Of a stretch of DNA of 64,000 bases, positions 14,530-15,060 are shown one piece after another (the stretch's first letter is position 1; every line of letters starts with the position of its first letter). This DNA comes from Thermococcus peptonophilus (GTDB lineage: Archaea > Methanobacteriota_B > Thermococci > Thermococcales > Thermococcaceae). The stretch spans positions 744,001 to 808,000 of the forward strand of contig NZ_CP014750.1 of assembly GCF_001592435.1 (NCBI RefSeq), in the 5' to 3' direction. The position numbers and the translations under genes were made by a program. The notes under the pieces are model-generated. The model saw only the letters and a list, made by a program, of their open reading frames with translations. It had not been told where the DNA came from and made no database searches.

Positions 14530-14593
14530 TTCAATCACCAACTCTGCTTAGCAGGAGACCGGTATAAAACCTTGACCCCCAGCAGGGGCAAAG

Positions 14594-14603
14594 CTTATAA
14601 AAG
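14594..14603 (+). promoter_or_regulatory. TATA box for tRNA-Lys
   Basis: CTTATAAAAG lies about 30 bp before the tRNA-Lys 5' end, in the gap divergent from pyrD. Confidence 0.6.
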
Positions 14604-14629
14604 CTTTATCAGGTTAAAGATTCGGGCAC

Positions 14630-14707
14630 GGGCCGGTAGCTCAGCCTGGTTAGAGCGCGGGGCTTTTAACCCCGTGGCCGCGGGTTCGAATCCCGCCCGG
14701 CCCGCCA
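14630..14707 (+). tRNA. tRNA-Lys (TTT)
   Basis: Cloverleaf with acceptor GGGCCGG/CCGGCCC, anticodon stem CGGGG/CCCCG around CTTTTAA (anticodon TTT), T-arm GCGGG-TTCGAAT-CCCGC, discriminator G and encoded CCA. A hairpin-rich gene-free stretch begins just 8 bp after the CCA. Confidence 0.95.
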
Positions 14708-15060
14708 GCAATACAAACTTCGCCTGCGCGAAGTTTGATCAAGGCTCATGGTTCCTCCCAAAATTGCTTTTCTATGGGGATTTCCACAACACACAAGATA
14801 GCATCAGTGAATTTCCTAAGTTTCAGCCTGCTGAAAAGGAGTTTCTAACACCCCGACGCCCTACGGGCGTCCATTACAAAGCAAACTCGCCTAAAACTAG
14901 CCTGTCAAAATTGAAATTCACAACCCAAGACAGCATTCAAAGGAAATCCTCTCAAAACAGCCTTTAATCGAGAACCACTAACCTTGATGAAACTTTGCCC
15001 AGCAAAGTTTCTTTGGGCAAGCTTTTTCCAAAAGCTTGCTAGAAAAGTTTTTATCGTATT
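14708..15060. repeat. gene-free AT-rich element with five perfect hairpins, flanked by inverted repeats
   Basis: No credible gene lies between tRNA-Lys and the BlaI-like gene. Five perfect inverted repeats occur in a row: 14715-14736 (9-bp arms AAACTTCGC), 14821-14836 (TTTCAG/CTGAAA), 14856-14870 (ACGCCC/GGGCGT), 14990-15010 (AAACTTTGC arms) and 15017-15039 (GCAAGCTTTT arms, 3-base loop). The outer units are related: the reverse complement of 14715-14744 nearly equals 14982-15010 (both begin CCTTGAT, then AAACTT). So about 290 bp is bounded by long imperfect inverted repeats. It could be a non-autonomous mobile element, a degenerate integration scar at a tRNA, or a structured RNA. A 60-base sample at 14761 is 37% GC. 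Confidence 0.6.

Follow-up and report, generated by a model that had tools for sequence, protein, structure and literature searches.

ERIC of enterobacteria is a long imperfect palindrome of constrained length with no known transposase. In Thermococcus, chromosome inversions break at pairs of tRNA genes in opposite orientation, and the pTN3 integrase is described as capable of low-specificity recombination (PMC5495485). This 2017 study also reported that the integrase failed in vitro on unlike tRNAs (tRNA-Leu with tRNA-Thr), and its main text makes no mention of palindromes. The hairpins that follow a tRNA-Lys(TTT) gene of Thermococcus peptonophilus are one copy of a widespread, non-coding, palindrome-ended repeat family at Thermococcus tRNA 3' ends. 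The family is apparently undescribed so far; the open-licence literature yielded no description of the units, and an earlier one is possible, for example within a genome paper.

The gene that anchors the array occupies positions 14630-14707 on the plus strand (ARAGORN; Rfam RF00005, 74.3 bits) of the window, the 64-kb stretch of DNA that was analysed. The initial annotation had listed five perfect hairpins behind it, and all are present within 14714-15039, some lying 1-2 bases from where they had been placed: 14714-14737 (10-bp arms), 14821-14836 (7), 14855-14871 (7), 14989-15011 (10) and 15017-15039 (10). In 2000 dinucleotide shuffles of 14708-15060, such hairpins average 0.14 and never exceed 3, against the five seen here; elsewhere in the window, no 353-bp tile contains at least three. 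The stretch folds with z = -6.2 to -6.5 (DNA and RNA folds; the RNA fold on both strands). The annotation had also paired the outermost two hairpins as inverted partners enclosing one bounded unit. A bounded unit does exist, a class A unit of 298 bp at 14714-15011 (plus strand) across which same-genome paralogs align, but its limits are the first and fourth hairpins, which are the inverted-repeat partners (arms 14724-14754 and 14972-15002); the fifth belongs to a different class.

The first palindrome follows the CCA of the tRNA after a spacing of 6 bp. This left end palindrome, CAAACTTCGCCTGCGCGAAGTTTG (14714-14737; hairpin search), recurs behind the genome's own tRNA-Leu, -Gln, -Arg(CCG) and -Met genes, and leads into the left inverted-repeat core ATCAAGGCTCATGGTTC (14738-14754, plus strand), which was located by pattern search and is conserved in the class A alignment. 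Alignment and hairpin search define a left arm of drifting sequence (14755-14854), which includes the small hairpin at 14821-14836. The central, or apex, hairpin GACGCCC-TAC-GGGCGTC (14855-14871; hairpin search) has a 7-bp stem and is conserved in relatives both in position and as a hairpin. The right arm (14872-14971) also drifts and has weak complementarity to the left arm (self-complementarity comparison and alignment). It is followed by the right core ATCAAGGTTAGTGGTTC, read on the minus strand (14972-14988; pattern search), and the right end palindrome GAAACTTTGCCCAGCAAAGTTTC (14989-15011; hairpin search). Beyond it, a 39-bp remnant of the next unit of the chain (15012-15050) consists of the end palindrome GCAAGCTTTTTCCAAAAGCTTGC (15017-15039) and a half palindrome, and matches unit junctions elsewhere in the genome (L013, L014, L018) at 95%; the same kind of ending is found at most other arrays. 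To judge from this match, a second, neighbouring unit has been lost almost entirely, and the fifth hairpin is its end palindrome. No tRNA fragment was found at the far end (15011-15060), and an integration scar as the annotation had proposed does not fit a unit that is not bounded by one. The tRNA-Lys(TTT) gene (14585-14707 with its upstream sequence) neighbours pyrD in a minority of relatives only; in most relatives its position is different and about 45 bp of the upstream sequence are conserved along with it, which looks as though a small block had moved.

A similarity search for dispersed copies and empty sites, as the annotation had advised, found both: 27 matches in about 15 places of the same genome (about nine of full length, 69-81% identity), matches in 74 of 94 Thermococcaceae genomes (repeated with a shorter query), and an empty tRNA-Lys in one relative (G069). 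The copies examined were those in stretches around tRNAs and around matches. They share one plan of an end palindrome, an inverted-repeat core, two arms of about 115 bp flanking a central hairpin, and a second end palindrome; further classes in the same genome follow this plan with other arms and apex hairpins and are joined into head-to-tail chains. Scored by eye, chains lie directly 3' of 18 of the 46 tRNA genes of T. peptonophilus (Lys, Met, Leu, Arg, Gln, Val, Ile, Ala, Pro, Trp and others). The chains are oriented, consist of abutting units and begin 2-9 bases past the tRNA, with the same end towards the tRNA in 43 of 50 copies. A strict automatic rule required a perfect hairpin with arms of at least 8, at most 45 nt from the end of the tRNA; it overlooks one class of chain start. 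By this rule 11/41 tRNAs qualify here and 13/38, 15/39, 16/26 and 8/27 in four relatives, whereas G034, which has no units, gives 0/26, and randomly chosen places in the window give 0.75%. Beyond what had been noticed at first, the units form tandem chains, lie almost always behind tRNA genes and have a fixed size.

At 24 of the 29 best-hit loci from other genomes, the unit is found on the 3' side of a tRNA, no more than 1 kb away. At L029 and L044 it follows a truncated tRNA that has kept its 3' part but not its 5' part, and at L046 it follows an intron-bearing tRNA-Met; two loci (L030, L055) have no assignment. No relative of the window unit was found in any of the nine genomes of genus g3, or in G034, G072 and G045, which belong to the genus of T. 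peptonophilus. Palindromes arising by chance in decaying intergenic sequence would have interior arms that drift quickly, as these do, and the annotation had expected such palindromes to have no similar sequence anywhere; the shuffles, the roughly 80% identical paralogs in the same genome and the relatives in 74 genomes refute this explanation. Within T. peptonophilus itself, a unit at L058 is also located behind a tRNA fragment. The fragments, probably tRNA-Val 3' ends lying far from any full tRNA with a unit directly behind (L058:3220-3276, L044:1180-1235, L029 near 2030-2100), look like attachment-site remnants of integrated plasmids. Copies of the unit on plasmids or phages were sought in PLSDB and INPHARED, which gave no match, and a pattern scan of IMG/VR gave only 22 hits, resembling chance matches in unrelated sequence; a virus or plasmid origin of the units was rejected on these grounds.

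Occupancy of the same tRNA changes between species. The tRNA-Lys beside pyrD, an arrangement found in some relatives only, carries class A here, other classes in G024, the closest relative found, and in G068, G066 and G051, and none in G069; tRNA-Lys genes at other positions have various units or none on their 3' side. G014 and G036 are sister genomes with about 90% identity. Their Asp-Lys intervals are set apart by a whole additional unit and by an insert of about 40 bp with two hairpins within an end palindrome. The tRNA blocks Met-Asn-Thr and Arg(TCG) are inverted between these sisters (L208/L228, L218/L238) while the flanking genes are collinear, and the breakpoints fall in or adjoin the 3'-flanking units. 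A tree of 50 copies intermixes genomes and tRNA loci, with a few orthologous or recently copied pairs, so that strict inheritance by tRNA locus was rejected; to judge by the tree, some copies are inherited in place and others have moved. The insert of about 40 bp recurs as two small hairpins, ACGGGACGACAGTCCCGT and GTTGAAGCGAAGCTTCAAC, inside some end palindromes (L211:1190-1290; L227 and L247 at tRNA-Leu(CAA); L008 in the genome of T. peptonophilus) and may be a second, smaller mobile repeat. A G+C-rich hairpin module (CTGTACTCTCAA..CCCC..GTGGGGCTTCGCCCCAC..GGGGGCTAACGCCCCC) occurs at array ends in several genomes (L058:3808-3900, L200 behind tRNA-Lys, L017:1450-1490). About 1.9 kb with an apparent membrane-protein coding sequence lies directly after tRNA-Glu(TTC) in G036 (L243:410-2365) and is absent from G014.

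Copying between tRNA loci can be followed in pairs within one genome. In G041, the flanks of tRNA-Lys and tRNA-Arg(CCG) are near-identical from the common tRNA 3' half to the right-end palindrome and unrelated beyond, and for two tRNA-Leu genes of G014, near-identity begins at the tRNA variable arm and runs up to where the next unit starts. Identity in both copy tracts sets in within the tRNA 3' half and breaks off in, or slightly past, the right-end palindromes. Only two such tracts are clear, and because donor and target tRNAs share sequence anyway in both, tRNA likeness may be part of the reason why identity begins inside the tRNA. In T. peptonophilus, the flanks of tRNA-Lys and tRNA-Arg(CCG) (L012) have 35 bp in common at 97%, and the Arg(CCG) side is reduced to a solitary palindrome. 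On the strength of these pairs, DNA-level exchange from tRNA 3' halves to palindromes is favoured. We give a probability of roughly 0.55 to the reading that the units are non-coding DNA repeats which owe their spread to recombination with its anchor at tRNA 3' ends. Copies would pass as DNA from locus to locus through gene conversion or crossover, and the units would have no enzyme of their own; one side of the exchange would be anchored on identical tRNA 3' halves, and the end palindromes would be where it is resolved. The joining could be performed by host recombination or by a pTN3-type integrase, and crossovers between inverted tRNAs would flip the intervening DNA. This recombination model leaves the first arrival of a unit at a tRNA with a different 3' half unexplained.

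A classical MITE would here be a non-autonomous DNA transposon, mobilised in trans by a transposase directed to the DNA immediately behind tRNA genes. It would account for inverted-repeat ends, a non-coding interior, many copies, a fixed size, and filled and empty sites; the terminal cores at 14738-14754 and 14972-14988 have counterparts at an inverted spacing of 232-239 bp in four genomes. The MITE-like element that the annotation had suggested thus stands in part, as a dispersed non-coding inverted-repeat unit at tRNA 3' ends that are empty or differently filled in relatives; the target duplication and the coding relative were not seen. By eye, no target duplication was recognised at array ends, where filled and empty pairs are too distant for certainty, and the loci read contain no coding relative with the same ends. 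Two enzyme families were surveyed. The Y1 transposase (PF01797) is absent from T. peptonophilus and from most unit-rich genomes and present in 25 of 94, and the reverse transcriptase (PF00078) occurs in one of 94, which is not T. peptonophilus; a retroelement was rejected for this reason. Taken together, transposition as a MITE is possible but doubtful. The missing Y1 enzyme also speaks against a REPIN or IS200/IS605-like element moved by a hairpin-recognising Y1 transposase, which would explain hairpins at both ends in inverted orientation and appears very improbable.

The annotation had further raised a structured non-coding RNA, which would here be a product of the tRNA 3' trailer. The same-strand position directly behind tRNAs and the strong fold are in its favour, and tRNA-linked snoRNAs of T. 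kodakarensis provide a precedent (PMC4247193). In an alignment of 24 class A units, the ends and the apex are conserved and the arms drift. Arm self-complementarity is weak but retained in most copies (median z 1.7, n = 63). Across 12 independent pairs, paired interior sites changed at 8.9% and unpaired ones at 11.6% (p = 0.12), so the paired arm sites are not significantly conserved. Only one of 33 changed interior pairs was compensated, with 11 changed to GT, 9 to AC and 12 otherwise, which shows no GU bias. An apparent strand bias in GT/AC mismatches among related copies of the genome (one-sided; 2 vs 15 for the window copy) was rejected, as it is gone in the independent pairs (11 vs 9). 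The RNAalifold consensus comprises essentially the ends and the apex, both strands fold equally well, Rfam gives no match in the stretch at gathering threshold apart from the tRNA, and the main text of the T. kodakarensis primary transcriptome paper names no such RNA (PMC4247193). Because interior pairing of the long arms is unprotected, a structured RNA is improbable.

Length and centre are held more tightly than sequence. Of 44 units found by end motif, 39 measure 257-272 bp and 38 measure 257-269 bp, with a central apex wherever it is called as a GC-rich 7-bp hairpin; this holds across subfamilies with arms too different to align. The variance of net indels amounts to 0.27 of that expected under random signs, a reduction exaggerated by false paired gaps in diverged alignments. 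The apex stems vary by subfamily and are nearly always perfect (GACGCCC/GGGCGTC, GCGCTCC/GGAGCGC, GGCACCC/GGGTGCC, GGCGTCC/GGACGCC), and therefore a hairpin at this position is selected or regenerated. The recombination model does not call for a constraint on length or on the central hairpin, yet the conservation of both suggests one; why the length should stay fixed while the sequence drifts is unexplained and open to testing. Such conservation of length, centre and apex hairpin, together with the oriented placement, would suit an element of DNA architecture, that is, a block kept at tRNA genes that is prone to form cruciforms or binds a protein and would serve chromosome folding, insulation or the stalling of SMC. 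Many tRNAs, some Thermococcus species and all nine g3 genomes lack units, however, and units are gained and lost at the same tRNA between species, making such a role distinctly unlikely.

The units may help to explain chromosome rearrangement at Thermococcus tRNAs. A large proportion of tRNA 3' ends carries them across this genus, which includes genetically tractable species, and at the very sites where its inversions break they offer common sequence in both orientations. We hypothesise that the arrays promote inversions. In a comparison of G026 with G033 by eye, the upstream neighbour was kept and the downstream one lost at 6 of 19 unit-bearing tRNAs and 1 of 10 without units, which is a trend only and not significant; a link of units to synteny breakpoints was not accepted on this basis. 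A more far-reaching scheme is speculative and rather unlikely: the units would form a gene-free cassette system of fixed-size palindromic elements, a recombinase would swap them from one tRNA 3' end to another by linking tRNA 3' halves with palindromic junctions, and crossovers of opposed arrays would be a main cause of inversions in the genus.

Compared with known systems, the units resemble MITEs in being short, non-coding and present in many copies with inverted-repeat ends and filled and empty sites, and differ from them in their nearly exclusive post-tRNA placement, oriented tandem chains, palindromes at both ends and a central hairpin at fixed distance, with no target duplication or autonomous partner found in the loci read. 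REPINs and BIMEs with a RAYT transposase likewise have two inverted palindromic ends that form a long hairpin; the units are about 300 bp rather than about 100, are bound to tRNAs and occur here in a genome without a Y1/RAYT enzyme. The units share with ERIC the form of a long imperfect palindrome of constrained length, whereas ERIC is dispersed in transcribed intergenic DNA without a tie to tRNAs, and no relation in sequence is claimed. Integron cassette arrays offer a resemblance only, namely an oriented chain from one anchor with palindromic junctions; the anchors here are many tRNA genes, and no integrase or cassette genes were seen in the loci read. Unlike tRNA-targeting integrative elements, the units have neither an integrase nor a tRNA fragment at the far end, but they share with these elements and with the inversions driven by IntpTN3 (PMC5495485) the use of the tRNA as the exchange point and of opposed tRNAs as the inversion ends.
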